A stretch of 42,002 nucleotides of DNA from positions 1-42,002 of the forward strand of contig QZLD01000142.1 in NCBI GenBank assembly GCA_004796385.1, written 5' to 3'. Source of the DNA: Gammaproteobacteria bacterium (GTDB lineage Bacteria > Pseudomonadota > Gammaproteobacteria > QZLD01). The position numbers were made by a program, and so were the translations under genes. Positions 2,444 to 39,187 of this stretch are shown piece after piece (the first letter of the stretch is position 1; each line of letters starts with the position of its first letter). The notes under the pieces were generated by a model. That model did not search any database. It was not told the origin of the DNA and saw nothing but the letters and a program-made list of their open reading frames with translations.

Positions 2444-4261
2444 TTACAAACTGTTTATACCGTCTATCTTTACTGTTTTCCCAGTATCAGGAAGAGTAAA
2501 TTTCTTATATTTTCCTTTATCCTCAACCACATCCCAGTAATACCAAAGGTTTGTGCTACTGTTAATATCTTTAAAGCTATAGATTATTTCGGTTGGTTCA
2601 CTGTTTTCATTTACTGCAATCACTTCAATTGTCACATCAGGAAAAGATCTCTTATAACCTAACGAAATCAAATGCTTATAATTACTAAACAGTGTATCGC
2701 GTACAGCTACTGAATCAGTATAGATTTTCATTCCACTATCAATAGAAATTTTTAGTTTATTCTCATCTGTTCTTGTTATATCAATTGATTCGTAAGATGA
2801 AGTTAATATTCTGGCACTTTCAGGCAACTGCTTTTCAAAGTATGAAAATTGGTAAGGCAGATATAACCATTGGAAAGAGTGTGGTGAACTAATTAGATAA
2901 ACCCTTTTTTCAGATAAGTCCTGGCTAAGAAATATAATATCGGCATCATTATTTTTTTTCTTAACCATTCCCTGATACAGATAAACCGAAAGGCATAGCA
3001 ATGCTATAAATGAAATGAATATATTAAACCCCAGATAAACAACCTTATACGCCTTATACACACAACAATTTTTGTTTTGGTAATAATTAAAGGCAAGTAT
3101 AAAAAAACCGAACATCATTACCGAAACAAAGATCAGCAATCGCCCGCTTATCATTCCGATTGCAACCGGAGGAACTACACTAAAAAGTGCCCCAACAAGA
3201 AAGAACCTTGCCAGCTTTACCTCTTTAATAAACTGCCTGTTTAATATTAGCGTTAAAAGAAATATCGCAGCACCAATAACTGCATAAATGACCTTTGTTA
3301 AAGGAGAAAATAAATTATAGAGCATATCAACACCAGATATCTGATTAAGAATCAGTGCCGGCCCCCTTGTAAAAACCACCTCAACAAATCCTTTAAAATT
3401 TTTAATAGGATCAACATAAAGCCCATTATTTAATGCTCCATAATGACCACTCTGATAGCAGATCCTCCATAAAACAACTAATAAAAGATATGGAGCAAAG
3501 GTGATTATTTTCTTTTTAATTGATTCAGGTGAAATAAAAAGAATATACGCCATAATCAATCCTGCTGAACCTATACCGGCCTCTGCTGATAAGAGTGCAA
3601 GACCAAAAAAAACCAAACTTAGAATCCGGTTTTTCAAACTGTTTGTAAGAAGCATAAAATAAAAAGATAACAACCCAAATGAGCCTGCCATAAGTGCGTT
3701 ACGACTGGCGATCCATCCAAGGCTTTCATAAAGGCTTAAATCAACAACCAAAAACAACAAACCAAAGGCTGCCAATTTTTTTCCATTCATGGAGGTATCT
3801 TTAAACAGATGCTTAAATACCAAATATCCAGATAGTAGATAGAGCATAAACCAGAAAATACTGTGTAAGTGCATCATGGCTATTGAGTCAGGCCATAGCT
3901 TATAATCCAGCCAGTGACTTATTGATGCCAGTGGCCGCCAGAAACTCAGCTGTACCTCATCACTCCCCCACCACGGATATACCCCAATCTCTTTCATACG
4001 ATTAATATTGGTTCTGTCCTTTGGAAAAAATGAGAACAGGGTCATGGCTGCATCGGTAGCACCTATATCGCCATCTGCATTTTGAAAACCCAGTTGTTGC
4101 AACTGATGCGAACCTTTTAACGCCACATAGTGAAAATAATCATCAGCAGCAAGAGGAACCTTTATAGAGGACAAAGCGAAAAACAGAGCCAGAAAAAAAA
4201 GAAGCCATGGCTTACTTACAAACTTAATAAATAGCTGTGAAGTCTTATTAATTAAAGCCAT
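2444..4261 (-). CDS. Polytopic membrane protein, candidate GT-C-fold glycosyltransferase
   Basis: A protein of 605 residues with about ten predicted membrane helices in the first 430 residues (for example WLLFFLALFFALSSI, FWFMLYLLSGYLVF and IYAVIGAAIFLLTLIL), then a soluble C-terminal part of about 170 residues. Directly after the first helix comes LAADDYFHYVAL, an acidic pair in the first extracytoplasmic loop. This is where GT-C glycosyltransferases that use polyprenyl-phosphate sugars carry catalytic acidic residues. The gene lies 90 bases downstream of the HAD-UbiA gene in the same orientation, so it may transfer the lipid-linked pentose made by the three upstream enzymes. Pseudomonas pilin arabinosyltransferase TfpW is a known precedent for a GT-C enzyme beside DprE1/DprE2/UbiA homologues. 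I recognise no specific family; the GT-C call is inferred from topology, the acidic loop and context. It could be an O-antigen ligase-like or other membrane protein. Confidence 0.55.
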   Translation of the reverse strand: MALINKTSQLFIKFVSKPWLLFFLALFFALSSIKVPLAADDYFHYVALKGSHQLQQLGFQNADGDIGATDAAMTLFSFFPKDRTNINRMKEIGVYPWWGSDEVQLSFWRPLASISHWLDYKLWPDSIAMMHLHSIFWFMLYLLSGYLVFKHLFKDTSMNGKKLAAFGLLFLVVDLSLYESLGWIASRNALMAGSFGLLSFYFMLLTNSLKNRILSLVFFGLALLSAEAGIGSAGLIMAYILFISPESIKKKIITFAPYLLLVVLWRICYQSGHYGALNNGLYVDPIKNFKGFVEVVFTRGPALILNQISGVDMLYNLFSPLTKVIYAVIGAAIFLLTLILNRQFIKEVKLARFFLVGALFSVVPPVAIGMISGRLLIFVSVMMFGFFILAFNYYQNKNCCVYKAYKVVYLGFNIFISFIALLCLSVYLYQGMVKKKNNDADIIFLSQDLSEKRVYLISSPHSFQWLYLPYQFSYFEKQLPESARILTSSYESIDITRTDENKLKISIDSGMKIYTDSVAVRDTLFSNYKHLISLGYKRSFPDVTIEVIAVNENSEPTEIIYSFKDINSSTNLWYYWDVVEDKGKYKKFTLPDTGKTVKIDGINSL

Positions 4262-4351: not shown

Positions 4352-5803
4352 TTATAGTGCCTGAATCTGAATATAACTTTGGTTCGCCAAAGCCAAAAAT
4401 AATGCCGAGATAAGAGCTACAACCCAGCTACCCTTGTCTTTAATAGCGAAAACAATAGGGTCTTCGTGCATATTGCCTCTTGCTGTTATTAACCAGATTC
4501 TGCTTATCCAAAACAGTATCAAAGGGCAGATAAACCAGAGCATACCAGGGTTTTTATAAAGCTTTTCATCAAGGCTGTTTATATAAAGAGCAAATACCAA
4601 AACGGCAAGATAACCACTTGCCGTTCCCATACTATTGACTATAGTAAGATCCGAAACAGAATATCCCCTCCCCTTTGCCTGCTCTTTTTTACTATTAATA
4701 AGATTAATAAGCTCTGATGCTCTTTTAACCAGCGCCAAACTTAAAAATACAAACACGGAAAATGCCAAGAGCCAGAAACTAGGAGATATCTTACAAGCCG
4801 CAGCACCTGCAACTACCCTGCTTGTAAAAAGTCCGGCAAGAACTATTACATCAACCATTGGAAGAGTTTTTAATTTAAAGGAATAGATAAGTGTCGTGCC
4901 AATATAAATAGCAAGTACAACTGCAAATTTCCACGGAATAAAAAAGAGCATTATCATACTTAAAACAAATAGTAAAAACGCAATCATCAGTCCATGCAGG
5001 ATTGATATATCGCCGGATGCAAAGGCTCTTTTCTTTTTATAACTGTTGGCTCTGTCTGCATCCAGATCTAAAAGATCATTTACAACATATGTTGCCGATG
5101 CACATAGGCCAAAACAGACGAAAGCCAAAAGCGCACTAATCACAAGAGGAGTCTGACTGAATTCGTGAGATGCCAGTAGTGGCACAAAAATCAAGGCATT
5201 TTTGGTCCACTGATGAATTCTGATAGCCTTAAGATACTTTTTTATGCTCGCCGTCTTTCTATCAAAAATGAGCTCAACTTCGCAGCTTTTTTTGGCAATC
5301 TCTATTGTTCCAGGCTTGGCATTAACAACAATAGCCTTTCTTGATATCTCCCATATATGGCCATCTTTCGCCTCATTTCCTGCGTAGTCGAAATTTCTTT
5401 TACCATAGGTCTTTTCCAGATACTCCGCCTTATTTCTTCCGGTAAGATTTACTGCATCATCTGTTGAAACAACACCACTGAATATTCCCAGATAATCAGC
5501 TATCTTCTCAGCATATTTCTTATAACTGCCGGTAACCAAAACCAGTTCACGCTTTTCGCCGAACTGAGCCTTCAGATATTCTAAAAATTCATAATCGTAA
5601 GGAAGATTTTCGACATCTATTTCAGAACGGTTTGCAAGCTCTCTTTTAAGATGCTGTTTACCCTGCATTAACCAGAAAGGCACCATAAAAACAATGTAAA
5701 GATGCCTTTTAAATGCCCTGACAAATGACTCAAGCATAATATCGCTACGAATCAGTGTGCCATCAAGATCGACACACAAAGGAATATTCGGCTTTTGTGA
5801 CAT
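4352..5803 (-). CDS. HAD phosphatase-UbiA prenyltransferase fusion (decaprenyl-phosphate phosphoribosyltransferase type)
   Basis: A protein of 483 residues. The start at 5803 (MSQKPNIPLCVDLDG) is preferred: AAGG lies eight bases upstream and this avoids overlap with the preceding gene. The N-terminal third is a HAD hydrolase, with motif I CVDLDGTLIRSD, motif II LVTGSYKKYA and a late GNEAKDGHIWE acidic motif. The C-terminal two thirds is a UbiA membrane prenyltransferase with about eight helices; NDLLDLDADRANSYKKKR is the first Asp-rich motif, and DVIVLAGLFTSRVVAGAA matches the second conserved region of the mycobacterial Rv3806c type. That enzyme joins PRPP to polyprenyl phosphate, and the fused HAD domain could remove the 5-phosphate from the product. 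The two downstream steps match the dprE1-like and dprE2-like genes encoded immediately upstream. The substrate assignment is inference; other UbiA acceptors are possible. Confidence 0.8.
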   Translation of the reverse strand: MSQKPNIPLCVDLDGTLIRSDIMLESFVRAFKRHLYIVFMVPFWLMQGKQHLKRELANRSEIDVENLPYDYEFLEYLKAQFGEKRELVLVTGSYKKYAEKIADYLGIFSGVVSTDDAVNLTGRNKAEYLEKTYGKRNFDYAGNEAKDGHIWEISRKAIVVNAKPGTIEIAKKSCEVELIFDRKTASIKKYLKAIRIHQWTKNALIFVPLLASHEFSQTPLVISALLAFVCFGLCASATYVVNDLLDLDADRANSYKKKRAFASGDISILHGLMIAFLLFVLSMIMLFFIPWKFAVVLAIYIGTTLIYSFKLKTLPMVDVIVLAGLFTSRVVAGAAACKISPSFWLLAFSVFVFLSLALVKRASELINLINSKKEQAKGRGYSVSDLTIVNSMGTASGYLAVLVFALYINSLDEKLYKNPGMLWFICPLILFWISRIWLITARGNMHEDPIVFAIKDKGSWVVALISALFLALANQSYIQIQAL

Positions 5804-5816
5804 TACATGAACCTTA

Positions 5817-6554
5817 TTATAATTTTGTTTTTTTGAATACAAATTCAGGAATAGAGGTAATAACCATCATTACACAGCGCCAAAACCATTTAGTATATAT
5901 GGTGTTTTTTCTTTTCTGCTGAGCCTTAACTATATCTCTGGCAACCTCTTCAGGCTCGGCAGTTAGTTTTGCAGGCAAATCCATTCCTTCAGTCATTCTG
6001 GTATTCACAAACCCGGGTTTTACTGTAACTACATGAACACCGCTTGCATAAAGACGATGGCGCAAGCCAGAAAGATAGGCTGTAAGACCTGCCTTAGCAC
6101 TTCCATACAGGTAGTTGCTCTGCCGTCCCCTGTCTCCTGCAACAGATGACACACCTACAATAAATCCACTCTTTTTGCTCTCATAATCGTTGGCTATAAC
6201 ATTTAGCAGAGAAACTGCTCCAACATAGTTGGTATTTATAATTCTTTGTGTCTCTTCAAAATCCGCCTGCGCCTTTATCTGATCTCCCAGATACCCGATG
6301 AACAACAGCGTACCTTCAGGTTTTGGATCGAGTTTTTCGTAAAAATCAGCATGGGATGCAAAATCCACTGCATCAACCTCGACTGTTTCAGCTTCAATAT
6401 TGTATTTTACCTTCAAGTCTGTGGCGGTTGCTTCGGCCTCTTCCTTTTCCTGCGCTCTGGTTGCCAAATAGAGGCTTTTTCCCTGTTTAGCATATTCTGC
6501 AGCCACTGCCTTAGCGATATCCGACGCTGCTCCTAATATCAATATATATGACAT
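5817..6554 (-). CDS. dprE2: Short-chain dehydrogenase, DprE2-like (polyprenylphosphoryl-2-keto-ribose reductase)
   Basis: A protein of 245 residues, the common SDR length. It starts with a Rossmann fold (ILILGAASDIAKAVAAEYAK) in which the usual TGxxxGIG is GAASDIA, the form found in DprE2. The catalytic Ser is in VGVSSVAGDRG and the YxxxK pair in NYLYGSAKAGL. DprE2 with DprE1 epimerises polyprenylphosphoryl-ribose to the arabinose form: DprE1 oxidises C2 and DprE2 reduces the keto intermediate with NADH. The gene starts one base after the dprE1-like stop and ends 13 bases before the HAD-UbiA start, so the three are almost certainly translated from one mRNA. The C-terminus is basic and hydrophobic (FWRCVMMVITSIPEFVF), as in family members that stay near the membrane. 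The specific substrate is inferred from the partners. Confidence 0.82.
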   Translation of the reverse strand: MSYILILGAASDIAKAVAAEYAKQGKSLYLATRAQEKEEAEATATDLKVKYNIEAETVEVDAVDFASHADFYEKLDPKPEGTLLFIGYLGDQIKAQADFEETQRIINTNYVGAVSLLNVIANDYESKKSGFIVGVSSVAGDRGRQSNYLYGSAKAGLTAYLSGLRHRLYASGVHVVTVKPGFVNTRMTEGMDLPAKLTAEPEEVARDIVKAQQKRKNTIYTKWFWRCVMMVITSIPEFVFKKTKL

Positions 6555-6555
6555 A

Positions 6556-7878
6556 TTAAATCCCTACTCTCTTTGATTGTAATGAGGCGAACCTGTTATC
6601 AGGATCATATTTATGTTTTAGCTCCTTAAACCTTTCTGCATAAGGATATCCGGCAAGCATTTTTGGCTCCATTCTTACGTCTTTTGCAAAATAGAGACGC
6701 CCGCCATAGTCAAGCACCAAGTCATCAAGCTCGTCCAACAATTTGAAAAGACCGTTTTTAATTGGAAAATCAAGCGCCAGCGTGTAACCCTCTTTCGGAA
6801 ATGAGAAGAGGTCATCCTGCTGCCCAAACAGTTTCAATACTGCAAGAAAAGACCCCTGACCACTCTCAGCTATTCTGGAAAGCACCTTTCCAAGCCCTTC
6901 TCTGCCTGCATCTTTCGGCAATACAAACTGATATTGTGTAAAACCGCGCTTGCCGTAAATTCTGTTCCAGTTCAAAACTCCATCCAGAGGATAGAAAAAC
7001 TGATCATAATCTACTATTGAAACCTTGCTTTCCTTTGGCCCCTTCATGTAATAAAGAGCATTAAATGCCTTTACTGTCAATGGGTTAAGCGCAAAAGATG
7101 GAAAGTTTATCGGAACATTTAATTTGAGTTTTTTAGGAAGAATCAATGGCGCTCTGCGATGCTTGATTTTAACCAGTTCATTTTCACCGGCATGCTCTCC
7201 ACGCATCATCAGAGAGCGCCCCATATTTTCACCCTGCATAAGACAGTCAATCCAGGCTACAGAGTATGTCCAGTCATCTGAGTCTTCAAATACATCCATT
7301 ATTTCAGATAAATTTTTTGCCTTGATCATCTCTTGGCGTATAAAAGCTGTTTCAACACGAATCAAATTCATGGATACTCGCAGTATATAGCCTGTAAGCC
7401 CCATACCTCCTGCGGTTGCTTCAAACAGTTCGGAGTTTTCATCCTTGCTACATCTGACTACCTCACCTGAGGCAAGCATAATCTCCATCCAGTTAACGTG
7501 GTGGCAGAATGATCCTGAAAGATGGTGATTTTTTCCGTGGACATTTGAGGCTATAGCACCGCCAACTGTTACAAATTTTGTACCGGGAGTTGTCGGCAAA
7601 AACCAACCTCGAGAGACAAATACATCAAGAATATCCTCAAGAGAAACACCGGATTCACAAACAAGTTCACCACTCTCCTCATCAAAGCTGATCATACGAT
7701 TAAAACGCAGTGAGGAAACAACAGTTTGTGACAGAGAGCTGTCTCCATAACACCGACCTAACCCCCTCGGAATAACCTCTTTGGCTTCGGATATAATTTT
7801 AGATAACTTACCTTCATTTACGAAAGACCTGAAATCAACATCCACTTCGGGGTAATTCCCCCAGTTCGATAGCTTCAT
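6556..7878 (-). CDS. dprE1: FAD-linked oxidoreductase, DprE1-like (polyprenylphosphoryl-ribose 2-oxidase)
   Basis: A protein of 440 residues, close to mycobacterial DprE1. The vanillyl-alcohol-oxidase-type FAD domain shows RGLGRCYGDSSL near residue 40, PGTKFVTVGGAIASNVHGKN near 97-117 and GGMGLTGYILRV near 155. The C-terminal part has WNRIYGKRGFTQYQFVLP, LDFPIKNG and GGRLYFAKDVR, where the Lys in FAKD (about residue 399) matches the essential DprE1 lysine. It oxidises the C2 hydroxyl of polyprenylphosphoryl-ribofuranose; the DprE2-like product finishes the epimerisation. In DprE1 the residue targeted by benzothiazinones is a Cys in a WNICVDFPI context; here the aligned segment is YTLALDFPI, with Ala. 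It is the first gene of the putative four-gene transcript, with a 268-base intergenic region upstream. Confidence 0.87.
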   Translation of the reverse strand: MKLSNWGNYPEVDVDFRSFVNEGKLSKIISEAKEVIPRGLGRCYGDSSLSQTVVSSLRFNRMISFDEESGELVCESGVSLEDILDVFVSRGWFLPTTPGTKFVTVGGAIASNVHGKNHHLSGSFCHHVNWMEIMLASGEVVRCSKDENSELFEATAGGMGLTGYILRVSMNLIRVETAFIRQEMIKAKNLSEIMDVFEDSDDWTYSVAWIDCLMQGENMGRSLMMRGEHAGENELVKIKHRRAPLILPKKLKLNVPINFPSFALNPLTVKAFNALYYMKGPKESKVSIVDYDQFFYPLDGVLNWNRIYGKRGFTQYQFVLPKDAGREGLGKVLSRIAESGQGSFLAVLKLFGQQDDLFSFPKEGYTLALDFPIKNGLFKLLDELDDLVLDYGGRLYFAKDVRMEPKMLAGYPYAERFKELKHKYDPDNRFASLQSKRVGI

Positions 7879-8146
7879 AACTTTAATTTCCCGAATTTAA
7901 CACACATAGAACCTTTAAAATAAATCTATAACAGCAAATTTGATTGCATTAATCTCAAACAACTTCGTCCTTTGCGCTTTATTATTTTTTTAGAAAAGCT
8001 TATTTATACTAAATATGTTCAATAGTTGCAGAACTTCCTAATTACAACAAAACAGCTAACTATTAGCAAGAGCAGACAGCCATTTTACTATATAAAAAAA
8101 CACGCCATATTTCAGGCGTGTTTTTTATTCAAAATTTTCGAACATG
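7879..8146. other. Intergenic region between rpoS and the dprE1-like gene
   Basis: A 268-base AT-rich gap. It contains the rpoS terminator (8094-8126) and must also hold the promoter of the dprE1-dprE2-UbiA-GT-C transcript, because both flanking genes are on the minus strand. I could not find a convincing -35/-10 pair. No small ORF or RNA gene is evident. Confidence 0.6.
8094..8126 (-). terminator. Rho-independent terminator of rpoS
   Basis: The sequence AAAAAACACGCC, an eight-base loop and GGCGTGTTTTTT form a GC-rich six-base-pair stem that extends to twelve pairs through flanking A and T tracts. It sits about 20 bases past the rpoS stop. The A/T tracts make it potentially bidirectional, but only rpoS is transcribed into it. 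Confidence 0.9.
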
Positions 8147-9259
8147 CTAACCAAAAATTATCTCTTCTGAAAATCCGGTTCTTTCTAAAACTTCTCTAAG
8201 TTTCTTAAGAGCATCAATCTGAATCTGCCTAACTCTCTCTCTGGTAACTCCAATTTCATTACCAACCTCTTCAAGCGTCGATTTTGGATAACCATGAAGT
8301 CCGAATCTTCGTTCAATTACAGAGCGCTGTTTTTCATTGAGTTGATCCAGCCACTCTTCAATATGCCCCATAATGTCATCATCCTGAAGAATTCTTGATG
8401 GATCTGGATTGCTTTCATCTGCAATTGAATCTACAAGTGATCTCTCTGCATCCTTTCCTACCGGAGTATCCACCGAAGCTATTCTCTCATTAAGACCAAG
8501 CATTTTTTTAACTTCTTCAGCAGGCTTATCCAATACCTCTGCAATTTCTTCTGCCGTAGGTTCGTGATCAAGATTTTGGGCTAATTTGCGGGAAGTTCTA
8601 AGAAAGGAATTTATCTCTTTTATGACGTGGATAGGAAGCCTTATGGTTCTGGTCTGATTCATTATCGCCCGTTCAATTGTTTGACGAATCCACCAAGTGG
8701 CATATGTGGAAAATCTAAAACCTCTTTCCGGATCAAATTTTTCAACCGCTCTAATAAGTCCTAAATTCCCCTCTTCTATAAGATCAAGTAACGGCAACCC
8801 TCGATTCATATAACGACGGGCAATTTTAACAACCAACCGTAGATTGCTCTCTATCATTCTCTTTCGCCCAGACTCTACTCCCTTTTGAGCAAGTCTCGAA
8901 TAATAAACTTCTTCCTCTGCTGATAACAGAGGTGAAAAACCAATTTCACCAAGATACATGCGGGTCGCATCGAGCCCTCCATCAGCAAAGGCATCGTCTT
9001 CATTTCTTGTTCTTGCTGTTATGGCGTTACTGCTCTCTTCCGACGAATCATCTTCACTACTATTATCTACATCAGAGGCATCCAGCATGCTCTCTTCATC
9101 GGCAATATCACCTTTTTTTGCCTTCTTTTTTCTTTTTTTGGCATTTGCTGATTTTTTTCCGGGAATATCGTTACCAATCACAACTTCGCTATCGGCTTCA
9201 GTAACAACAGTTGAGTCATCCCATTCCGCTTCTGGCTTAACCACACACTTCTTGGCCAT
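8147..9259 (-). CDS. rpoS: RNA polymerase sigma factor RpoS (sigma-38)
   Basis: A protein of 370 residues. The start at 9259 (MAKKCVV) is chosen because AGGAG lies seven bases upstream; the track's upstream start has no such site. Conserved sigma regions appear in order: region 1.2 [16 protein letters not shown] near residue 98, region 2 with [20 protein letters not shown] and [20 protein letters not shown], region 3 with [18 protein letters not shown], and region 4 with [15 protein letters not shown] and [20 protein letters not shown]. It lacks region 1.1, as RpoS does, and lies directly downstream of nlpD, the classical arrangement. RpoS directs general stress and stationary-phase transcription. 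The N-terminus is about 45 residues longer than in E. coli RpoS and is low-complexity: a Lys-rich run, then an acidic Ser/Asp-rich run. Confidence 0.95.
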
Positions 9260-9328
9260 AACACATCTCCTTTGCATTAATTGTCAGAATGTTTCATCGG
9301 CAGATTAGGTTTTACCTTTAATCGACCT

Positions 9329-10093
9329 TCACTTTTGTTTAAATCCCTTTTTAGGTAAATACCTAATTGGATCAACCGGTTTTCCATTGCGGCGGATCTC
9401 AAAATGGAGTCTTGCATTACCTTCGTTATCAACTCCCATCTTTGCTATCTTTTGACCTGCTTTTACGCTATCACCCTCTCCAACCAAAAGAACAGAGTTA
9501 TAACCATAAGCTGTCAAAAACTCTTCGCTGTGTTTTACTATCAATAGTTTTCCATAACCTATCAGACCGCTACCGCTATACACAACTTTTCCTGATCGGG
9601 ATGCGTATACTGATTGTCCTTTTTTCCCGGTTATGTCAATGCCCTTGCTTCCAGTAATACCAGTATTGAAAAGCCTTGCCACTCGACCAATAGTAGGCCA
9701 TCTCCATGAAGAAAGAACTGTGACCTGATCCTCATTTTTGCTTTTTTCAATATTTTTTTTGCGATTTATTTTATTTTTCTTATCTTTAACTTTTTCTTTT
9801 GCTCGCATATTGTTGTTTTTATTGAATTTTAAGCACCTCCTTATATACAGCAACTGACGAGGATAAATTGTGTACGGACTACTGATACCATTACACGCTG
9901 CAAGTTTTTGCAGGTTAATATCATATCTCCAAGATAAAGAGTATAAAGTATCCCCTTTTTCCACTCTGTAAGCCTGTGGCCTGTATGTTCGATTTTCAGT
10001 ACTACGCTTTCTATAACTAGAACAAGATGAAACCAACAATAGGCAAAGCAGAATCAAAAAGTAACTGGCTGATTTTTTCCCTATCACTCTCAT
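9329..10093 (-). CDS. nlpD: NlpD-type lipoprotein: LysM plus degenerate LytM (M23) domain
   Basis: A protein of 254 residues. A lipoprotein signal peptide ends in the lipobox VSSC (Cys near residue 24). A LysM peptidoglycan-binding domain follows (YRVEKGDTLYSLSWRYDINLQKLA), then a Lys-rich linker and a C-terminal M23/LytM domain (GIDITGKKGQSVYASRSGKVVYSG ... LHFEIRRNGKPVDPIRYL). In active M23 enzymes the first metal ligand is His in HxGxD; here it is SKGID, and the second motif is LHFEIR. The site is therefore incomplete, as in NlpD proteins that activate the amidase AmiC instead of cutting peptidoglycan. It lies 69 bases upstream of rpoS, and in E. coli the main rpoS promoter lies inside nlpD. 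AGGA directly abuts the ATG, so a GTG two codons later (10087) is a possible better-spaced start. Confidence 0.9.
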   Translation of the reverse strand: MRVIGKKSASYFLILLCLLLVSSCSSYRKRSTENRTYRPQAYRVEKGDTLYSLSWRYDINLQKLAACNGISSPYTIYPRQLLYIRRCLKFNKNNNMRAKEKVKDKKNKINRKKNIEKSKNEDQVTVLSSWRWPTIGRVARLFNTGITGSKGIDITGKKGQSVYASRSGKVVYSGSGLIGYGKLLIVKHSEEFLTAYGYNSVLLVGEGDSVKAGQKIAKMGVDNEGNARLHFEIRRNGKPVDPIRYLPKKGFKQK

Positions 10094-10223
10094 TCCTAAA
10101 AAACATTTGCTAATTGGATTTGCTATAACACCAAGAACCTTATCATATTGTTACAAAGAATGGGATTATTCCATTTTTAATCTACACTTATGCTGAGTAC
10201 TGTTAATTTTCCGGGCATTAAGA

Positions 10224-11684
10224 ATGGATAAGATAAAACCGATAGATTTGTGGATACGCAATATTGTTGACAGGGAACTTCCTGCAATGGGGTTCACTGT
10301 AAAAACCATTTGTGAACTTCTTGCTAAAAGAACTTCAACTGCAAATGATATCGCCAATACAATACTAAAAGACCCTGGGATGACCTCTACTCTTTTGAGA
10401 GTAGCAAATAGTGCTTATTACAATACAGGAGGATCTGAAATAACCACTGTAAGCAGAGCTGTGGTTCTTTTAGGATCGCAGGCAATAAGAAACTTAAGCC
10501 TTTCAGTATCCGTAATGGAAAATGTTATCAAAGGTGCAAAAAAAGACCGCCAGCTTCAGCTATTAGCCAAGTCAATGTTTGCCGCTACCCAAGCGAAATC
10601 ACTTGCAATTAAAAGAAATCATCCTCATCCTGAAGAGGTATTTATTGCTACTCTTCTTTATCATCTTGGGGAAATGACTTTCTGGTGTGTTGATTCAAGA
10701 GAGGCTCTTGCGCTGGATAAAGCGCTATCGAACCCCCGTATTCCTAGGGCAGTTGCAGAAAAAGAGATTCTCGGATTCAGATTCGCGCAATTAACCCATG
10801 CCCTGTCATATGAATGGAATCTTGGGGATGCTTTGCGCGAAGCTTTAATCTTCAGCGATGGCAGAAACGGTGAAGCAGATGCCAGAAATATTGTTCTGAG
10901 CCACCAGATAGAAAACGCCTCCAGAAACGGCATAGAATCGCCAATAATGAACTGGGTATGCAAACGCACTTCCGACTTCATCCAAAAACCTGTGGATGAG
11001 GTCAAAACCATTGTTACCACTACTGCTGAAACAGCACAAGAAACGGCCGATGAAATGGGGGTTGACCTGAAATGGCGTGTAAAACCTGAAAAAGATCTGA
11101 TTAAAGTCAGCAGAGAATATAATGATAGAGCTTCTTCAGTATCAAGAGATGTTCAGAATCAGATCAGCTCTGAAATTGACAAAATGATACCCAGCAAGCC
11201 TGATGTTCAGCTTATCCTAAGAATGATAATTGAGGGAATTCAACGCGGTGGGAACATGGATAGAACTTTATTGGCAATTCTTACACCGGACAGAAATAAA
11301 CTGATTGTAAAATATCAACTTGGTGATGAATCATCAGTTTTCTGCAAAAAATTTGATTTCCCTCTGGAAAATAACAGCATGAGACTTTTCCCGTTCATTA
11401 TGAGGCAGATTAAAAGACCTGTATGGATAAGTAAAAATAATGCGGGAGGCATTGATAAAATGATAACCACTGAAATTCGTAACCTTACAGAAGGAAACGA
11501 TTTCCTTGTTGCGCCTTTAATTATTGATGATAAAGATATCGGAATGATCTATTCCGACAGAGGAATAAGTAAATCTCAAATGGATAGGGAAGCTTTTGAA
11601 AATTTCTGTAGATTCGCACAGCAAGCAAATACCTGCTTACACAGGATTCATGAATCACCGCTAAAGCCTTATTTAACAAGCTAA
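10224..11684 (+). CDS. HDOD-domain signalling protein with C-terminal GAF-like region
   Basis: A protein of 486 residues. Residues 10-210 form an HDOD domain: LPAMGFTVKTICELLAKRTS, DPGMTSTLLRVANSAYYN, VSRAVVLLGSQAIRNLSLS and an HLGEM segment in the central helix, which lacks the HD pair of active HD phosphohydrolases. Residues 330-480 look like a GAF-type sensor domain (MIIEGIQRGGNMDRTLLAIL ... LVAPLIIDDKDIGMIYSDRG). Proteins with this layout occur in gammaproteobacteria as stress or cyclic-di-GMP-linked regulators of unknown mechanism. The gene diverges from nlpD across 130 bases and is convergent with the 142-residue hypothetical protein, whose stop is four bases away. Its ligand and partner cannot be inferred from the sequence. 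Confidence 0.8.
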   Translation: MDKIKPIDLWIRNIVDRELPAMGFTVKTICELLAKRTSTANDIANTILKDPGMTSTLLRVANSAYYNTGGSEITTVSRAVVLLGSQAIRNLSLSVSVMENVIKGAKKDRQLQLLAKSMFAATQAKSLAIKRNHPHPEEVFIATLLYHLGEMTFWCVDSREALALDKALSNPRIPRAVAEKEILGFRFAQLTHALSYEWNLGDALREALIFSDGRNGEADARNIVLSHQIENASRNGIESPIMNWVCKRTSDFIQKPVDEVKTIVTTTAETAQETADEMGVDLKWRVKPEKDLIKVSREYNDRASSVSRDVQNQISSEIDKMIPSKPDVQLILRMIIEGIQRGGNMDRTLLAILTPDRNKLIVKYQLGDESSVFCKKFDFPLENNSMRLFPFIMRQIKRPVWISKNNAGGIDKMITTEIRNLTEGNDFLVAPLIIDDKDIGMIYSDRGISKSQMDREAFENFCRFAQQANTCLHRIHESPLKPYLTS

Positions 11685-11688
11685 AAGA

Positions 11689-12117
11689 TCAAAGGTTAGC
11701 TGCTATCTCAATCTCGCAGTCCTTGACCCACTTAACGGATTCGTCACTTAAAATGAATGGCATTTCACCTCCATCAAGCATCAACCCATCAACTTTTTCA
11801 CACAAAACTCCAGCAGCAATTACTGAAGTAATATATTGGCAATAATCATTATAAGTAATCAGCACTATTGCGTTTTTGCGGTCACCTACAATTTTAAGGT
11901 CTGAAGCGTCTAATTCTGAAATATCAATCTCGTCAAAATAGCACTCAAAACCACCTTTTTTGCCCTTATAACTGCATTTTACAAAACCATCTACAGTTAG
12001 TGGATCAAAGTCGATTTCAAGCTCAGCATCAAATCCGCTCGCTTTAATCGCCTTTGCCCACTCTTGCGCTGTTATCATTTTCTCCTTATTAAGGAGAACT
12101 ACATTTTCAACCGACAT
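11689..12117 (-). CDS. Hypothetical protein, third gene of the ratA-rnfH transcript
   Basis: A protein of 142 residues with no signal peptide or membrane helix. I do not recognise the family. It is acidic, with Asp/Glu-rich stretches such as ELEIDFDPLTVDGF and CYFDEIDISELDASDLK, and has three Cys residues spread along its length. The start is well supported by AGGGA five bases upstream of the ATG. It begins eight bases after rnfH and shares its orientation, so it is co-translated with the RatA and RnfH homologues. Its stop lies four bases from the convergent HDOD gene, and a short AGCTAA...TTAGCT inverted repeat spans the two stops. A cytoplasmic accessory role is all that context allows. Confidence 0.7.
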   Translation of the reverse strand: MSVENVVLLNKEKMITAQEWAKAIKASGFDAELEIDFDPLTVDGFVKCSYKGKKGGFECYFDEIDISELDASDLKIVGDRKNAIVLITYNDYCQYITSVIAAGVLCEKVDGLMLDGGEMPFILSDESVKWVKDCEIEIAANL

Positions 12118-12125
12118 TCAATTCC

Positions 12126-12452
12126 CTATGATTCTGCAGCTGACGCAGCTTCAGCCTTTGCCTTATCTCTCTCGGCCTTCTCTTTTCTGGCTGTTTTCGG
12201 ATCAACCTGAAGAGGCCTTAATATCTCAATTCTATCCCACTCATTAAGAACAGTATCCGCTTTTGCCTTTTTTCCAAAAATAGAAACAGCATGTTTATTA
12301 AGATCTACTTCCGGGTAACGTTTGTAAACACCGGACATTTCGACCGCATCCTCAAGCTTTGTTCCTTCAGGAACTGCAACCTCAAGTATTGCTTGCTGAT
12401 CAACCGATCTGGCGTATGCAACCTCTACCTTTATCTTTTTTACTTCAGTCAT
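12126..12452 (-). CDS. rnfH: RnfH family (UPF0125) ubiquitin-like protein
   Basis: A protein of 108 residues. It begins MTEVKKIKVEVAYAR and contains EVAVPEGTKLEDAVEMSGV, VDLNKHAVSIFGKKAKADT and DRIEILRPLQVDPKTARKEKA, the well-known RnfH/RatB pattern with the C-terminal RPL-DPK-R signature. The fold is beta-grasp, like ThiS and MoaD. The function is uncertain: it was named from rnf clusters but usually follows ratA, as here. The C-terminus is a charged Ala/Lys/Glu-rich tail. It overlaps the end of ratA by eight bases, so the two are translationally coupled. Confidence 0.92.
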   Translation of the reverse strand: MTEVKKIKVEVAYARSVDQQAILEVAVPEGTKLEDAVEMSGVYKRYPEVDLNKHAVSIFGKKAKADTVLNEWDRIEILRPLQVDPKTARKEKAERDKAKAEAASAAES

Positions 12453-12873
12453 ATATTTCTCCAGCTCTTTTTACAAATGCCTTCACCATAGTATTGGCAG
12501 CATGATTAAAAACCATTCCGAAAACCCGTTTAATTAAACCGCTTGAATATTCATATTCAAGTCTTAGGCTTACTTTGCAGGCGTGATCATCAAGAGCAAA
12601 AAAGCGCCACTCTCCGGTAAGGGAGGAAAAAGGGCCTTCAACAAGTTTAAGCCTTATATAATGCCCTTTTTTTCGATTATTTACTGTTGAAAAAGACTCA
12701 TTAATCCCACCTTTCTGAATTCCGATTCTGGCAAACATATCATTACCATCAATATTCAGAACCTCGCTGGCTTTACACCAAGGCAGAAATAACTTATATG
12801 ATTCAACATCATCCACCATCTCAAACATCTGTTCTGCTGAATATGGAACTAATTGACTCTTTTCTACAATCAT
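12445..12873 (-). CDS. ratA: RatA-type SRPBCC (START-like) protein
   Basis: A protein of 142 residues, the family length. It begins MIVEKSQLVPYSAEQMFEMV, followed by DDVESYKLFLPWCKASEV, a FSTVNN segment and a SSLTGEWRFFAL segment, all typical of the coenzyme Q-binding/RatA family (E. coli YfjG, yeast Coq10). These proteins bind hydrophobic ligands such as ubiquinone; E. coli RatA was also reported to block 70S ribosome assembly when overproduced. Its stop overlaps the rnfH start by eight bases, and a good sigma-70 promoter lies just upstream (12902-12930). In many gammaproteobacteria smpB lies next to ratA; it is not here. Confidence 0.92.
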   Translation of the reverse strand: MIVEKSQLVPYSAEQMFEMVDDVESYKLFLPWCKASEVLNIDGNDMFARIGIQKGGINESFSTVNNRKKGHYIRLKLVEGPFSSLTGEWRFFALDDHACKVSLRLEYEYSSGLIKRVFGMVFNHAANTMVKAFVKRAGEIYD

Positions 12874-12901
12874 CCAAGACTGCCCGCTAAAAAACCGAGT
12901 G

Positions 12902-12930
12902 ATTATACCTTACGATAGTATTGTAACCAA
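12902..12930 (-). promoter_or_regulatory. Candidate sigma-70 promoter of ratA-rnfH
   Basis: On the minus strand TTGGTT, a 17-base spacer and TATAAT (a perfect -10 box) end about 28 bases before the ratA ATG. This gives a leader of roughly 20 bases. It would drive the ratA-rnfH-hypothetical transcript. Confidence 0.55.
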
Positions 12931-13000
12931 GTAGCAACCATAGGCGATAACCTGAAAATAAAAATTCTTACGATGGAAATTAAAAATCTGCCTGGGGCAT

Positions 13001-13603
13001 TTATGGCTTTTTCTTATGCTCTCTGATTTTATCCAGCTCTTTCTCAAGACAATCCGGACAAAGACCATGAGAAAACCCCATCCCCCACTCTTTATTAAAA
13101 TATTGTTCCAGTTTCTGCAAAGCCTGGTCTCCATTACGAATCACTTTACATCTGGAACAGATTGGAATCAGCTTATTTATCTCCGCAATCTCTTCAAAGT
13201 CCTCCATTATTAATATTACAAAATCGTCTCCATTGTATTTAAAAGGCGCTGTTGTAATTAATAAAAACACTTCGGTTATCTCGCCATTTTTTAATAGATC
13301 CATTCTGGTTCTTTTTCTATTAATCGTATTTCCTGAAAGTGTAGCCTTTACAGAGTTTCTGATATCGCAATATTTACACTGCTCTGATGTTCCACAACCT
13401 CCGCTTGAGTTATGATGATGGTAACAATCAAAAGCATCACCACCCCGCTTACCCTCAATAGTTTCAAACCAATAATGAGTAACTGATAACCCCGAACGAT
13501 TACCAAAGAGAATTTCTGCATTTTCATCTATAACAAAGACCATTGCAGGCATCGAGTTAAATACTGCCCCAAGCAGATCTGCCGTATAGATATTATCTTT
13601 CAT
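13001..13603 (-). CDS. Stand-alone PAS-domain protein with two cysteine clusters
   Basis: A protein of 200 residues if started at 13603 (MKDNIYTADLLGAVF); the track start lies inside the upstream gene. A PAS domain covers about residues 10-140, beginning FNSMPAMVFVIDENAEILFGN. Inside it lies a Cys/His-rich insert, FDCYHHHNSSGGCGTSEQCKYC, of a kind seen in PAS domains that could bind metal or an iron-sulfur cluster. The C-terminus has a second cluster, LIPICSRCKVIRNGD ... FSHGLCPDCLEKE, which matches the LP-C-CKKIR ... SHG-CP-C signature usually found downstream of PAS domains in histidine kinases. No kinase, GGDEF or DNA-binding output domain is present. It is separated by five bases from the exported START-like gene and is the last gene of the long XrtA-linked transcript. 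A redox or metal-sensing adaptor role is inference. Confidence 0.75.
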   Translation of the reverse strand: MKDNIYTADLLGAVFNSMPAMVFVIDENAEILFGNRSGLSVTHYWFETIEGKRGGDAFDCYHHHNSSGGCGTSEQCKYCDIRNSVKATLSGNTINRKRTRMDLLKNGEITEVFLLITTAPFKYNGDDFVILIMEDFEEIAEINKLIPICSRCKVIRNGDQALQKLEQYFNKEWGMGFSHGLCPDCLEKELDKIREHKKKP

Positions 13604-15005: not shown

Positions 15006-16085
15006 CTATCCAAGATTTTTAGCCAGCAACGGGCCTATTTTCCTGCTCAATGATAATGGCATTTTTTTCCAGCCATTTACAAAAAGACGGTATTTGGGAT
15101 TAAGTGGATTTATCTCCGGCATTTGATTCGCTTTTACCAGATAATACTGATAAGGCAATGGCTGAGGTTCAAAACCCCAGTTTTTCTTAAAACTATATGC
15201 TCCGGTACCGATTTTGCTTCTTCCGTAATCAAATATTGTATAGCCTTTATCTGCCGCACGACGCATGACTTCCCAATACATAAAGTCATTTCCTTTATAA
15301 GCTCTGGCTGCATCTGTACCGCCCCCATAGTATGGTATAACTTCATTTTTAAAGTAGAAATTCATTACGCTGGCTATTACTTCTTTATCTTTAAGGATAG
15401 TAACTATATCGCAGTCATTAGCAAATTCATCTTTAATTGCCTGAAAATATTTCTTTGGAAAAACAGGCGTTCCCAGCCTCCAGACACTAAATGAGTAGGC
15501 GTGAAAAAATCTGTCGATATCTGTATCTATCTCACTTATCAACTCCGCCTTTATACCTTTACGAACTACGGCCCTCTGTTTTCGGGGAATTGCTTTTAGG
15601 TTCTCTTCATGATCCAAGCTTATCTCTTTGCGAAAAGTCACATATAGTTCTTTTGTTGGCCAATCCGGATAGCAAATTTCTCTTTCACGCAATTCAAGAG
15701 CATCAACTTTAAGATCTTCCGCTATCTGACATGCTCTTTTTTCAAGCATTGTTTTTATTTCCCGAGTATCTGCAATTGCTCCACCATAAACAGCAAAAGG
15801 CAAACTGATAAGGCTATTACCAAAAAGTTTGCTTTTTATATGGCCAAGAGGCATAACTCCTTTAATATCTCCAGCATTTGTTTTTGCAAGCAAATAATAG
15901 GATTTATGATTTAGTGTTTTTTCCAGTATTTTCCGCCAACCTATTCTGTGAAAAAAAGTCGAATCATCCCTTGAGAAGATGTAATCATCCCATCTCTGCT
16001 CATCACCATTAGAAAACAATTCTATTGTGATCGCCTCATGACCCGCAGTGTTTTGGTCTGCTTTAGTAGCAGCTCCGTTTTCCAT
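15006..16085 (-). CDS. FemAB-family protein of XrtA/PEP-CTERM systems
   Basis: A protein of 359 residues with GGAGA just upstream of the ATG. It is a GNAT-fold FemAB/FmhB-like protein: FHRIGWRKILEKTLNHKSYYL, GVMPLGHIKSKLFGNSLISL, PFAVYGGAI, a RKQRAVVRKGIK basic patch, YGGGTDAARAYKGNDFMYWE and DYGRSKIGTGAYSFKKNWGF. The IFDYGRSK...FKKNWGFEP pattern is diagnostic of the FemAB subfamily that accompanies exosortase XrtA in exopolysaccharide loci. The reaction is unknown, but related proteins transfer aminoacyl or acyl groups onto envelope polymers. It follows the polysaccharide deacetylase with 21 bases between them, in the usual XrtA order. Confidence 0.88.
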   Translation of the reverse strand: MENGAATKADQNTAGHEAITIELFSNGDEQRWDDYIFSRDDSTFFHRIGWRKILEKTLNHKSYYLLAKTNAGDIKGVMPLGHIKSKLFGNSLISLPFAVYGGAIADTREIKTMLEKRACQIAEDLKVDALELREREICYPDWPTKELYVTFRKEISLDHEENLKAIPRKQRAVVRKGIKAELISEIDTDIDRFFHAYSFSVWRLGTPVFPKKYFQAIKDEFANDCDIVTILKDKEVIASVMNFYFKNEVIPYYGGGTDAARAYKGNDFMYWEVMRRAADKGYTIFDYGRSKIGTGAYSFKKNWGFEPQPLPYQYYLVKANQMPEINPLNPKYRLFVNGWKKMPLSLSRKIGPLLAKNLG

Positions 16086-16106
16086 AAATTCTCCATTGAC
16101 TTGCGA

Positions 16107-16994
16107 TTATGTTCTTTCTAAATAAATACTATCTACCCGACCCCATACAAAATCATCCAACAATATCTTTAACCGATTTTCCATTTTTTTTAGATTCGTG
16201 TAGTGACGCACTTTGGTTTTTAGCGATATGTTATGTTGCTGTGGTTGCTCAGGATCTATCTCCCACGGATGAAAATAAAAAATCGCGGGCTCTTTATCTT
16301 TTCTATTTACTCTTCCAATTGCATATTTTGACCAAAAGTATGGCAGCAACCTAAAGTATCCTCCACCTCCGCAAGGAAAATTTTTACCTAATAATCTGGT
16401 TGTAGTGACGGGAATCTCAATAAATGCTGTTTTTTTTCCATTTTTTTTATTTGGTCTAAATGCAAAACGAGGAGAATCCGGCATTCCATACAGATCATGT
16501 TTTATTGGATAGATGCTGGAACTGTATCTGTATCCTGCCTCTTCAAGAAGTTCCAACACCCAGAGGTTAGTTGCTCCAATAGAGTAACTGGGCGCTCTGT
16601 AACCAATAACTTCAACACCGGAAATATCTTCAAGAATTTTTTTTGTGGTGGTTATATCGCTATAGAAGCTGCTCTTATCAAAATTCGTTACCCGTACATG
16701 ATCATAACCATGACTTGCCAGCTCATGCCCTGAATCGACGACCTTCCTTATAAGTTTAGGGTATCTTTCGGCAACCCAACCAAGTACAAAGAAGGTTGCT
16801 TTAATATTTTTTTCTGCAAATATTTCCAGAACTCTATTGGTATTATTCTCTACCCTGCAGGGAATATCCTGCCACTGCGCTCTTTTTATATATTTTTCAA
16901 AGGCTGATACCTGAAAGTAATCTTCGACATCTACCGTCATAGCGTTTAACAAGGGCTTCTTCTGCTCCGCCGGATTTTTTGCCGGATGCTCCAT
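16107..16994 (-). CDS. XrtA-associated polysaccharide deacetylase (NodB fold, DUF3473)
   Basis: A protein of 295 residues. The start at 16994 (MEHPAKNPAEQ) has AAGG five bases upstream and lies two bases after the wecB stop; the track start would overlap wecB. Family motifs are AMTVDVEDYFQVSAFE (catalytic Asp and metal Asp), ATFFVLGWVAERYP, GHELASHGYDHVRV (metal His pair), GYRAPSYSIG and FYFHPWEIDPEQP. The last motif and the C-terminal part (LKTKVRHYTNLKKMENRLKILLDDF) are the DUF3473 portion typical of the PEP-CTERM-locus subfamily. It should de-N-acetylate a HexNAc-containing exopolysaccharide. No signal peptide is visible, so it is probably cytoplasmic or acts on lipid-linked intermediates. 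Confidence 0.9.
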   Translation of the reverse strand: MEHPAKNPAEQKKPLLNAMTVDVEDYFQVSAFEKYIKRAQWQDIPCRVENNTNRVLEIFAEKNIKATFFVLGWVAERYPKLIRKVVDSGHELASHGYDHVRVTNFDKSSFYSDITTTKKILEDISGVEVIGYRAPSYSIGATNLWVLELLEEAGYRYSSSIYPIKHDLYGMPDSPRFAFRPNKKNGKKTAFIEIPVTTTRLLGKNFPCGGGGYFRLLPYFWSKYAIGRVNRKDKEPAIFYFHPWEIDPEQPQQHNISLKTKVRHYTNLKKMENRLKILLDDFVWGRVDSIYLERT

Positions 16995-16996
16995 AT

Positions 16997-18136
16997 CTAC
17001 CTTCTTTGAAACCATTCTTCTATATGAGCAACAATTCTTTCTGCTGCTTTGCCATCCCAAAATTCGGGAATATTGCCAGCCCTTCCGCCTGTTTCCATAA
17101 CATCATTAAATGTATGGATGATTTTCCTCTTATCAGAGCCAACTATAGTGTTGGTGCCTTCCGTTACTGTTATCGGTCTTTCTGTAGAATCACGCAGGGT
17201 TATACACGGAATACCCAGCGAGGTTGTCTCTTCCTGTATACCTCCTGAATCGGTAAGCACAACCTTTGCCCCTTTCATTAGCCCCAACATCTGAAGATAT
17301 CCTGCCGGTGGTAATTTTAATATTCCCGGCTGCTCAAAGAAATCAGATAGCCCATAAGATCCAATTCTTGCTGCTGTACGCGGATGCACAGGGAAAACCA
17401 GAGGCAATTCTTTGCTGATTTGTGTAAGTGTTTCCAATAATGATTCAAGTACCTCTTTCGAGTCTACATTGGATGGACGATGCAGAGTCATAACTCCATA
17501 GCTACCATCTTCACCGCTGAAAAGCCTGCCTCCTCCATTATCTCTGAATATCTCTTTTGCTGAAACAGCATTAGGCAGGTTCATTTTCAGGGTATCTATC
17601 ATAACATTGCCTGCAAAATAAATTTTCTCTTCTGCTATACCCTCTTTAGCAAGATTTTCCTTTGCCTCTTTTTCTGTTAAATAGAGTAGGTCGGATATCT
17701 GATCGGTCAGTATTCTGTTTATCTCTTCCGGCATGTTTCTGTCGCCACTACGAAGACCCGCTTCCACATGAATCAGCGGAATATTCTTTTTAACCGCAAC
17801 CAAACCACAGGCTATTGTGGAATTAACATCTCCTACCACCAATACTGCATCAGGAGTTTTCTGATCCAGTATTGGTTCAAATCTCTTCATTATTTCTGCC
17901 GTTTGCACTGCGTGGCTACCGGAACCAACTTCAAGATCAACATCAGGCTCCGGAATTCCAAGTTGATCAAAAAATGATTTTTTCATGGCCTCGTCATAAT
18001 GCTGACCCGTATGAACTAAGGTTGCATTTATAATCTGACTTTTTTTTATTGCGGCCATAAGCGGAGCTATTTTCATAAAGTTAGGTCTTGCCCCTACAAC
18101 ACAGATTATCTCTTTTGTATTATTTTCCTGACTCAT
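16997..18136 (-). CDS. wecB: UDP-N-acetylglucosamine 2-epimerase (non-hydrolysing)
   Basis: A protein of 379 residues, the family length, with AAGGA six bases before the ATG. Motifs include VVGARPNFMKIAPLMAA, LVHTGQHYDEAM, VVGDVNSTIACGLVA, IHVEAGLRSGDRNMPEEINR, VMTLHRPSNVD, LTDSGGIQEETTSLGIPC and LRDSTERPITVTEGTN. It interconverts UDP-GlcNAc and UDP-ManNAc in the cytoplasm. Together with the adjacent deacetylase and FemAB genes it is a standard member of XrtA/PEP-CTERM polysaccharide loci, where it likely supplies UDP-ManNAc or its derivatives. A 94-base gap separates it from the ATPase gene upstream. The stop is two bases before the deacetylase start. Confidence 0.95.
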   Translation of the reverse strand: MSQENNTKEIICVVGARPNFMKIAPLMAAIKKSQIINATLVHTGQHYDEAMKKSFFDQLGIPEPDVDLEVGSGSHAVQTAEIMKRFEPILDQKTPDAVLVVGDVNSTIACGLVAVKKNIPLIHVEAGLRSGDRNMPEEINRILTDQISDLLYLTEKEAKENLAKEGIAEEKIYFAGNVMIDTLKMNLPNAVSAKEIFRDNGGGRLFSGEDGSYGVMTLHRPSNVDSKEVLESLLETLTQISKELPLVFPVHPRTAARIGSYGLSDFFEQPGILKLPPAGYLQMLGLMKGAKVVLTDSGGIQEETTSLGIPCITLRDSTERPITVTEGTNTIVGSDKRKIIHTFNDVMETGGRAGNIPEFWDGKAAERIVAHIEEWFQRR

Positions 18137-18230
18137 TATTTTTCCTTCTGCTCTCTTTTAGTAAATTTTAAAGAGCTGAGTTTATCCTCTTTTTATTACG
18201 TTATTTTTTCTTTTATTAATTGAATTTCGT

Positions 18231-19376
18231 TTACTTTGGTTTAAACGTCTTTAGCTGAAAAGTATCAAATTCCGATTCCATGCCTCCACCAAGACGTCCA
18301 ACGAGCATTCCATGAAGATATTCTATCTTCCTTTCAAGACCGGTAACTCTCTCTTCAAGTGAATCTATTTTTGCTTTAGCCTCTACAAGTTCTTCCGATT
18401 TTTTCTTAAGCTCTTCAGTAACATGAATTTCGTGACTTTTTGATGGTACAGTTCCTGCCTTTTCCATATGCTCATCAACTGAATTCATATCATATTTAAT
18501 TGATGAATTTGCAGGTCTTACTTGCTGTCCCAATGATGAGAAAGATTCTATTCCGGTTATTGCTTTCATTTCATTTTTTAGCTCATCAACAACTGTCTGC
18601 ACTACTTCTTTATCGAAAACATCCAACTGATGCAAAGCACCTAAAAGAAGCAATCTGTCACAAAGGCGATTTACGCGCCTTGGAACACCGTGGGTTTCCA
18701 TATAGATAAGCTCAAATGCTTCTGATGTGAATTTTGGGTTACTACGCCAGCCACATTTTATAAGGCGATACATTATGTAATCCTCTGTCTCCTTTTCCGT
18801 AAGCGGTTCAAGGTGACATGAGGCAATAATACGCTGCCTAAACTGCTCCATTGAGTCATGTGCCAAAAGATGCCTTAACTCAACTTGTCCCAACATAAAG
18901 CATTGCATAATCGGCTTACTGTTATGGTTAATATTGGATAACATTCTTAGCTCTTCGATACCCGGAAGAGATAGGTTTTGCGCTTCATCAATAACAAGCA
19001 GCACTCTTTTGCCTTCATTTGCCTTCTGCTTTAGAAATGTTTCTATAGCATGCAAAACCTGCGTTTTTGATAATCCCTCTGTTGAAATACCAAAAGAGGC
19101 GGCAACTAAGAACGGCATTTCATTACCATCAATCTGGGTGGTTACTATTCTGGAAGCAACCACAGGACCAAATTCGAGTACGGAGAAAAGTCTTTCAACA
19201 AGAGTGGTCTTACCTGTCCCAATCTCTCCTGTTATTACGATAAATCCTTCCGCCTGTTTAAGGCCATATTGAAGATAGGCAAACCCCTGATTGTGAACCT
19301 TGCTCCCGAAAAACAAGCTGGCACTCGGCGTAAGCTGAAAAGGATTACCTTTTAATTTGTAAAATTCTTCATACAT
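18231..19376 (-). CDS. XrtA/PEP-CTERM-associated AAA ATPase (ExeA/GspA-like)
   Basis: A protein of 381 residues. The start at 19376 (MYEEFYKLKGNPFQLTPSAS) is chosen; the GTG listed by the track lies 15 bases upstream and lacks a ribosome site. The N-terminus YEEFYKLKGNPFQLTP-FF is typical of the ExeA-type ATPase fold. Walker A is GEIGTGKTTLVERL, Walker B is VLLVIDEAQNLSLP, and a RRVNRLCDRLLLLG sensor-2 segment follows near residue 220. The C-terminal 100 residues form a coiled coil (KKKSEELVEAKAKIDSLEERV). This subfamily is found in XrtA loci next to the outer-membrane protein and wecB, exactly as here. Its role, probably in polymer assembly or secretion, is not established. Confidence 0.9.
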   Translation of the reverse strand: MYEEFYKLKGNPFQLTPSASLFFGSKVHNQGFAYLQYGLKQAEGFIVITGEIGTGKTTLVERLFSVLEFGPVVASRIVTTQIDGNEMPFLVAASFGISTEGLSKTQVLHAIETFLKQKANEGKRVLLVIDEAQNLSLPGIEELRMLSNINHNSKPIMQCFMLGQVELRHLLAHDSMEQFRQRIIASCHLEPLTEKETEDYIMYRLIKCGWRSNPKFTSEAFELIYMETHGVPRRVNRLCDRLLLLGALHQLDVFDKEVVQTVVDELKNEMKAITGIESFSSLGQQVRPANSSIKYDMNSVDEHMEKAGTVPSKSHEIHVTEELKKKSEELVEAKAKIDSLEERVTGLERKIEYLHGMLVGRLGGGMESEFDTFQLKTFKPK

Positions 19377-19413
19377 AGCTACACCACTCACAATAGGATA
19401 AAGATGAAATATT

Positions 19414-38629: not shown

Positions 38630-39187
38630 TTATTTTCTTTTTCTAGAAAGCCCTAAACCAAGCAAACCTAAACCAAATAACGCAATTGAAGCTGGCTCAG
38701 GAACTTCGCCATCTTTTCTATACTCAATATTATCAACAATTTCAATTAGATTTGTATCATAATAAATTTCTGCGTAGTTAAACAAACCTGTACCGGAAAG
38801 GGTTTGATTCATAATATCATCCCAGTTGGCAGTAAGAGCATAAGAACCTGTTAAAGCTCCATCAAGATAGAGATCAAGGTGCATTTGTCCATCAGGATCT
38901 CCAAACCCAGGATTGTCATTACCGAAATCGAACGATAGGTAATCGTATGTGTTGGCAAAACTAAGTTGTAGACGACTGGAATCATCTCCAAATATGCCAA
39001 GAGCAGTACCGTCACTTTGATGACCATAATCGCTCACTGATAAACCGGTCCCCATTGAATCGGTAAATGTAACATCACCAACGCTAAAAGAATTAACATT
39101 TGAAGCAGTAACACCATCAAAATTTATCACAGTAGCATTAGTGTTAGCTGCCGCAAGCAATCCAAGAGCGATAATTAATTTTTTCAT
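38630..39187 (-). CDS. PEP-CTERM sorting domain protein (candidate XrtA substrate)
   Basis: A protein of 185 residues. The N-terminal signal peptide is MKKLIIALGLLAAANTNATV. The C-terminus is a textbook PEP-CTERM tail: the motif VPEPAS, a hydrophobic helix (IALFGLGLLGLGL) and the basic end SRKRK. Exosortase XrtA cuts at this tail and the protein is then exported, often into an exopolysaccharide matrix. The middle is a beta-rich, Asp/Gly-rich domain (DSMGTGLSVSDYGHQSDGTA ... DYLSFDFGNDNPGFGD) without recognised catalytic residues. AAGGA lies nine bases before the ATG, and a sigma-54 promoter lies about 60 bases upstream. The gene is 18 kb from the XrtA-type polysaccharide genes of this window, and such substrates are commonly dispersed. 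Confidence 0.95.
   Translation of the reverse strand: MKKLIIALGLLAAANTNATVINFDGVTASNVNSFSVGDVTFTDSMGTGLSVSDYGHQSDGTALGIFGDDSSRLQLSFANTYDYLSFDFGNDNPGFGDPDGQMHLDLYLDGALTGSYALTANWDDIMNQTLSGTGLFNYAEIYYDTNLIEIVDNIEYRKDGEVPEPASIALFGLGLLGLGLSRKRK

Follow-up and report, generated by a model that had tools for sequence, protein, structure and literature searches.

Analysis of a 42,002-nt stretch of the gammaproteobacterial contig QZLD01000142.1 (assembly GCA_004796385.1; below, the window) raised the question of which enzyme removes the 5-phosphate from polyprenyl-linked phosphoribose. In mycobacteria, this removal has been assigned only to Rv3807c, a candidate phosphatase that conditional knockdowns showed to be nonessential (PMC5964476); elsewhere, it is commonly built into the transferase. 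A single gene of the window (positions 4352 to 5803, 483 amino acids from its ATG) encodes a UbiA-type membrane transferase with a HAD phosphatase fused to its N terminus and was defined by its ORF, its start site, Pfam and NCBIfam matches, and an AlphaFold model. This gene and all other features of its operon described below lie on the minus strand. The reading frame extends back to a TTG at 5842, and the ATG at 5803 is the better start because an AAGG sequence is positioned 8 nt upstream and the stop codon of the preceding dprE2-like gene, 13 bp away, ends at 5817. A Pfam scan revealed a soluble HAD domain (PF12710, 3.3e-07, above its cut-off; positions 5258 to 5785) and a UbiA domain (PF01040, 1.7e-22; positions 4382 to 5245). 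NCBIfam model NF006088 (PRK08238) spans the whole protein (627.1 bits versus a cut-off of 351; profile positions 6 to 480 of 482); this model is named "UbiA family prenyltransferase," carries no specific functional name, and differs from the protein in nothing diagnostic. The AlphaFold model was confident over both domains (pLDDT, 92.8; pTM, 0.88).

Assignment to the HAD phosphatases was based on four motifs, namely, DxDGT (I), T/S (II), K (III), and G(D/N)xxxD (IV). Motif alignment located all of them in the fusion protein (numbering from the TTG): motif I, DLDGT, with the nucleophilic aspartate (D25/D27; positions 5756 to 5770); motif II, TGS (T104 to S106; positions 5525 to 5533); motif III, a lysine (K138; positions 5429 to 5431); and motif IV, GNEAKD (G155 to D160; positions 5363 to 5380). 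A preliminary description of the locus, which had proposed an intact HAD-UbiA protein starting at the ATG and had listed motifs I, II, and IV, was thus confirmed on each of these points, and the motif III lysine is added here. A Foldseek search with the HAD half of the predicted structure placed phosphoserine phosphatases first (E value, 4e-4). Of the 111 fusion relatives that possess the N-terminal domain, 107 have retained the HAD catalytic residues; the fusion is thus not a chance one.

The UbiA half was assigned on the basis of its Pfam match, phmmer, and Foldseek. Searching the solved structures with the fusion protein by phmmer revealed the mycobacterial phosphoribosyltransferase 8j8j (6e-24), and 8j8j_A was also the top Foldseek match of the UbiA half (TM score, 0.83 by target length). 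The PRPP/Mg motif NDLLDLDAD (N-D-x2-D-x3-D; positions 5054 to 5080) was identified by homolog alignment and by its equivalents in the characterized protein ORF15 (see below), and its four residues are invariant across 119 aligned homologs. The arginine and glutamate of a second motif, KRASE (positions 4712 to 4726), likewise have ORF15 equivalents. The UbiA half therefore combines the UbiA fold, the N-D-x2-D-x3-D motif, and the R/E motifs that define DPPRS/PPPRS enzymes in the wide sense. The fold and the active-site residues are shared with Rv3806c of Mycobacterium tuberculosis (DPPR synthase, 8j8j), which lacks the HAD domain that is fused here. The best score to the equivalog models of decaprenyl-phosphate phosphoribosyltransferase (NCBIfam PRK12324) was 141.6 bits, below the cut-off of 207. 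The protein would work like Rv3806c yet falls outside the PRK12324 family by score. A role of the UbiA half as an aromatic or quinone prenyltransferase, to which weak matches to the 4-hydroxybenzoate and heme O prenyltransferase models might point, was rejected and has next to no probability: these matches reach 20 to 40 bits, compared to 627 for PRK08238 and about 141 for the decaprenyl-phosphate phosphoribosyltransferase model, and the best solved relatives by both sequence and fold are the mycobacterial phosphoribosyltransferase structures.

A protein of the same architecture has been characterized. ORF15 (PPPRS-PRP) of Citrobacter youngae O1 consists of an N-terminal HAD domain fused to a UbiA transferase and forms farnesylP-Ribf from PRPP in vitro, performing both steps (Kelly et al. 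2024, PMC11127046). According to the published positions (no direct alignment), D18, N247/D248/D251/D255, and R366/E369 of ORF15 correspond to residues of the fusion protein described here. The distance from the nucleophilic aspartate to the asparagine is 230 residues here and 229 in ORF15, and the spacings from asparagine to arginine (119 residues) and from arginine to glutamate are identical. By homology and motifs, the fusion thus provides the PPPRS-with-phosphatase component of the three-component pentofuranose system of Kelly et al. (2024).

On these grounds, the gene very probably encodes a bifunctional polyprenyl-phosphoribose synthase that feeds a lipid-linked arabinofuranose pathway. 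For the protein studied here, this reading is based on the arrangement of the genes, the intact domains and motifs, the predicted fold, and co-occurrence; for ORF15, others have shown the first two reactions in vitro. The UbiA half would transfer 5-phosphoribose from PRPP to a polyprenyl phosphate, probably undecaprenyl phosphate, in the membrane, and the fused cytoplasmic HAD domain would hydrolyze the 5-phosphate to yield polyprenyl-phosphoryl-ribofuranose. The DprE1 oxidase and the DprE2 reductase would then invert C2 to give polyprenyl-phosphoryl-arabinofuranose, a flippase would carry this lipid to the other side of the membrane, and the GT-C-like protein encoded at positions 2444 to 4261 may transfer its arabinofuranose to a glycan or protein of the envelope. 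The earlier suggestion that one protein carries out both transfer and dephosphorylation fits all the evidence and has a precedent in ORF15; since the two-step activity has been published for that protein, the suggestion was right but not new. The accompanying claim that the fusion closes the pathway gap between UbiA and DprE1 holds for fusion-bearing bacteria only, and the identity of the phosphatase in mycobacteria does not follow from the fusion. HAD-UbiA fusions are common, and their mechanism has already been demonstrated in principle. Because this principle was published in 2024, the gain of the present analysis lies in the distribution of the fusion and its conserved dprE1/dprE2 context, not in a new mechanism.

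The dephosphorylation step could alternatively be performed by a separate phosphatase, with the fused HAD domain acting on another substrate (free phosphoribose or a nucleotide) or having a regulatory role. The nucleophile mutant D18A of ORF15 bears on this in two ways: it accumulates the 5-phosphate lipid, as expected if the HAD domain is the phosphatase, and it retains some dephosphorylated product (PMC11127046), so the HAD domain is perhaps not the only phosphatase for the step. Natural variants also bear on it. In three genomes of one genus, motif alignment revealed fusions with a decayed HAD domain (L065, positions 6898 to 8319; L066, positions 9171 to 10493; L067, positions 8603 to 9925), in which motif I reads DLEGAL and motifs III and IV are lost, with the transferase motifs intact. 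A Pfam HAD match was absent from both of the proteins scanned (two of the three), and DUF212 was not found in the three genomes. Together with the residual activity of D18A, these fusions indicate that the HAD domain is not strictly needed everywhere. In locus L070 (positions 7189 to 10979), an unfused UbiA gene is followed by a DUF212/divergent PAP2 gene (positions 10488 to 10979; PF02681, 4e-33) that may perform the step, judged by its position; GtrA, dprE1, and dprE2 are oriented divergently. Against a separate enzyme stand the conserved catalytic residues of the fusion relatives, the failure to find DUF212 in the host genome (85% complete), and locus L069 (positions 5742 to 13012). This unfused operon comprises dprE1, dprE2, a standalone HAD gene (positions 7786 to 8397; PF12710, 5e-36), an unknown gene, UbiA, LPG_synthase_TM, and a gene for a large multi-pass protein, and is a Rosetta-stone counterpart of the fusion. 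Dephosphorylation of the lipid by a separate phosphatase in the organism studied here is accordingly regarded as highly improbable.

The presence of a separate HAD gene (L069) or DUF212/PAP2 gene (L070) in unfused operons supports the assignment of the dephosphorylation step. BLAST of the L069 HAD protein against the fused HAD domain returned a short motif I match only, and close common descent of the two is therefore not claimed. In a tree of UbiA halves, fused proteins separate from unfused ones with weak support (0.62), a topology compatible with one fusion event. The four variants (fused HAD, separate HAD, separate PAP2-like protein, and decayed HAD) make the phosphatase question testable by comparison. 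Among the other fusions, the second aspartate of HAD motif I is replaced by asparagine in locus L048. The HAD domain is N-terminal in the proteins from Pseudomonas folii, P. viridiflava, and strain ICMP 561 (L149, L153, and L154); for the P. syringae B728a protein, a C-terminal PRP domain has been described (PMC11127046).

The genomic localization of the fusion gene revealed the same-strand order dprE1-like, dprE2-like, fusion, and multi-pass protein, positioned behind rpoS; the first three genes are contiguous, with gaps of 1 bp (dprE1-dprE2) and 13 bp (dprE2-fusion). A terminator-like hairpin at about 8120 to 8093, ahead of the operon, was recognized by eye and is not on the list of the terminator scan. 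The DprE1-like FAD oxidase (positions 6556 to 7878) scores below the DprE1 equivalog NF053785 (421.9 versus 500 bits), and its closest solved proteins are still DprE1 structures (phmmer, 2e-80). The DprE2-like SDR reductase (positions 5817 to 6554) is below the DprE2 equivalog NF053786 (195.7 versus 250 bits) and above the cut-off of the SDR model PRK07102 (346.8 versus 267 bits). In the DprE1-like protein, an alanine (TLALDFPIK) is aligned to the cysteine of mycobacterial DprE1 (NVCVDFPIK), the residue targeted by benzothiazinones.

Co-occurrence was surveyed in 299 Pseudomonadota genomes. The fusion was found in 34 of them, DprE1 in 46, and both in 29 (odds ratio, 85; P = 2e-23, a value that serves only as a guide because the genomes are related). 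In 28 of the 29 genomes carrying both, the two genes are no more than 1.2 kb apart. A second sample comprised 80 named GTDB loci, which are the best matches to the protein of the window rather than a random set; 3 of them are also in the survey. Genes in these loci were called by tblastn and codon-position-aware calling. HAD and UbiA were present in all 80 loci, DprE1 within 1.6 kb in 61, and both DprE1 and DprE2 in 59. By their record titles, the loci belong to Gamma-, Beta-, Alpha-, and Zetaproteobacteria, Corallococcus, Verrucomicrobia, KSB1, Nitrospiraceae, and others. The association of the fusion with dprE1 and dprE2, on which the preliminary description had made its reading depend, was thus borne out: with 28 of 34 fusion genomes having DprE1 within 1.2 kb and 61 of 80 loci within 1.6 kb, the fusion does not occur mostly apart from these genes.

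The survey also bears on the end product. Polyprenyl-phosphoryl ribose or xylose could be used as such, with the DprE1/E2-like genes serving another lipid sugar. In keeping with this, DprE1 is lacking in 5 of the 34 surveyed fusion genomes and in 19 of the 80 named loci, with some of these cases lying at contig ends, and ORF15 serves the synthesis of O-antigen ribofuranose together with a flippase of the MATE type and an enzyme of family GT136 (PMC11127046). The contiguity of dprE1, dprE2, and the fusion in the window and the strong enrichment of DprE1/E2 adjacency argue against a ribose or xylose product, which we consider very unlikely here. Arabinofuranose as the product has parallels: DprE1/E2 homologs have been noted in candidate arabinofuranose systems (PMC11127046), and PSPA7_6245-6251 of Pseudomonas paraeruginosa is described (Harvey 2011, as cited in PMC12369383) as a cluster for D-Araf pilin glycosylation. 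As proposed for the operon studied here, that cluster combines a D-arabinofuranose pathway with a UbiA homolog outside mycobacteria; its UbiA protein has no HAD domain, and the phosphatase proposed for it is a separate protein from another family (PMC11127046).

For the later steps of the proposed arabinofuranose pathway, the multi-pass protein (positions 2444 to 4261) is a candidate GT-C glycosyltransferase (arabinosyltransferase), based on hydropathy, distant homologs, and position. Hydropathy analysis predicted 10 transmembrane segments: the first is followed by an outer loop of about 105 amino acids with an ADDY motif, nine further segments, and a C-terminal soluble part of about 180 amino acids. 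This topology is GT-C-like, no match was obtained in Pfam, NCBIfam, or the PDB, and the protein may supply the GT-C component of the Kelly et al. system. Its single-sequence AF2 model was poor and unusable (pLDDT, 41.5). Only two distant homologs turned up in 368 other genomes, and the stretches retrieved around these two contained neither dprE1 nor dprE2 nor a fusion gene. In contrast to the C. youngae locus, DprE1/E2 homologs adjoin the fusion here, and neither the MATE flippase nor the GT136 partner was recognized. No flippase gene lies beside the operon. GtrA and LPG_synthase_TM were not found in the 85% complete host genome, and MATE genes are present away from the operon. GtrA, EamA/SMR-like, or LPG_synthase_TM genes occur in many of the named loci, as do large proteins that lack a Pfam match; these are candidates for the flippase and the transferase. 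The host genome consists of 339 contigs, and its order is represented by just one other genome in the collection. That the operon, which comes from a gammaproteobacterial order with hardly any sampled genomes, builds a D-arabinofuranose envelope glycan, with the protein at 2444 to 4261 founding an undescribed GT-C family and a flippase type new to the pathway, is a tentative and rather doubtful proposal.

Genes resembling those for XrtA/PEP-CTERM exopolysaccharides (FemAB-like protein, deacetylase, UDP-GlcNAc epimerase, AAA ATPase, and outer membrane protein) were recognized by eye at positions 15006 to 20802, as was a PEP-CTERM protein at positions 38630 to 39187. An exopolysaccharide of this type is a possible acceptor glycan for the operon. 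A further gene (positions 33706 to 34734) encodes a protein whose N-terminal half contains repeated collagen-like stretches of the LGPxGPLG type.
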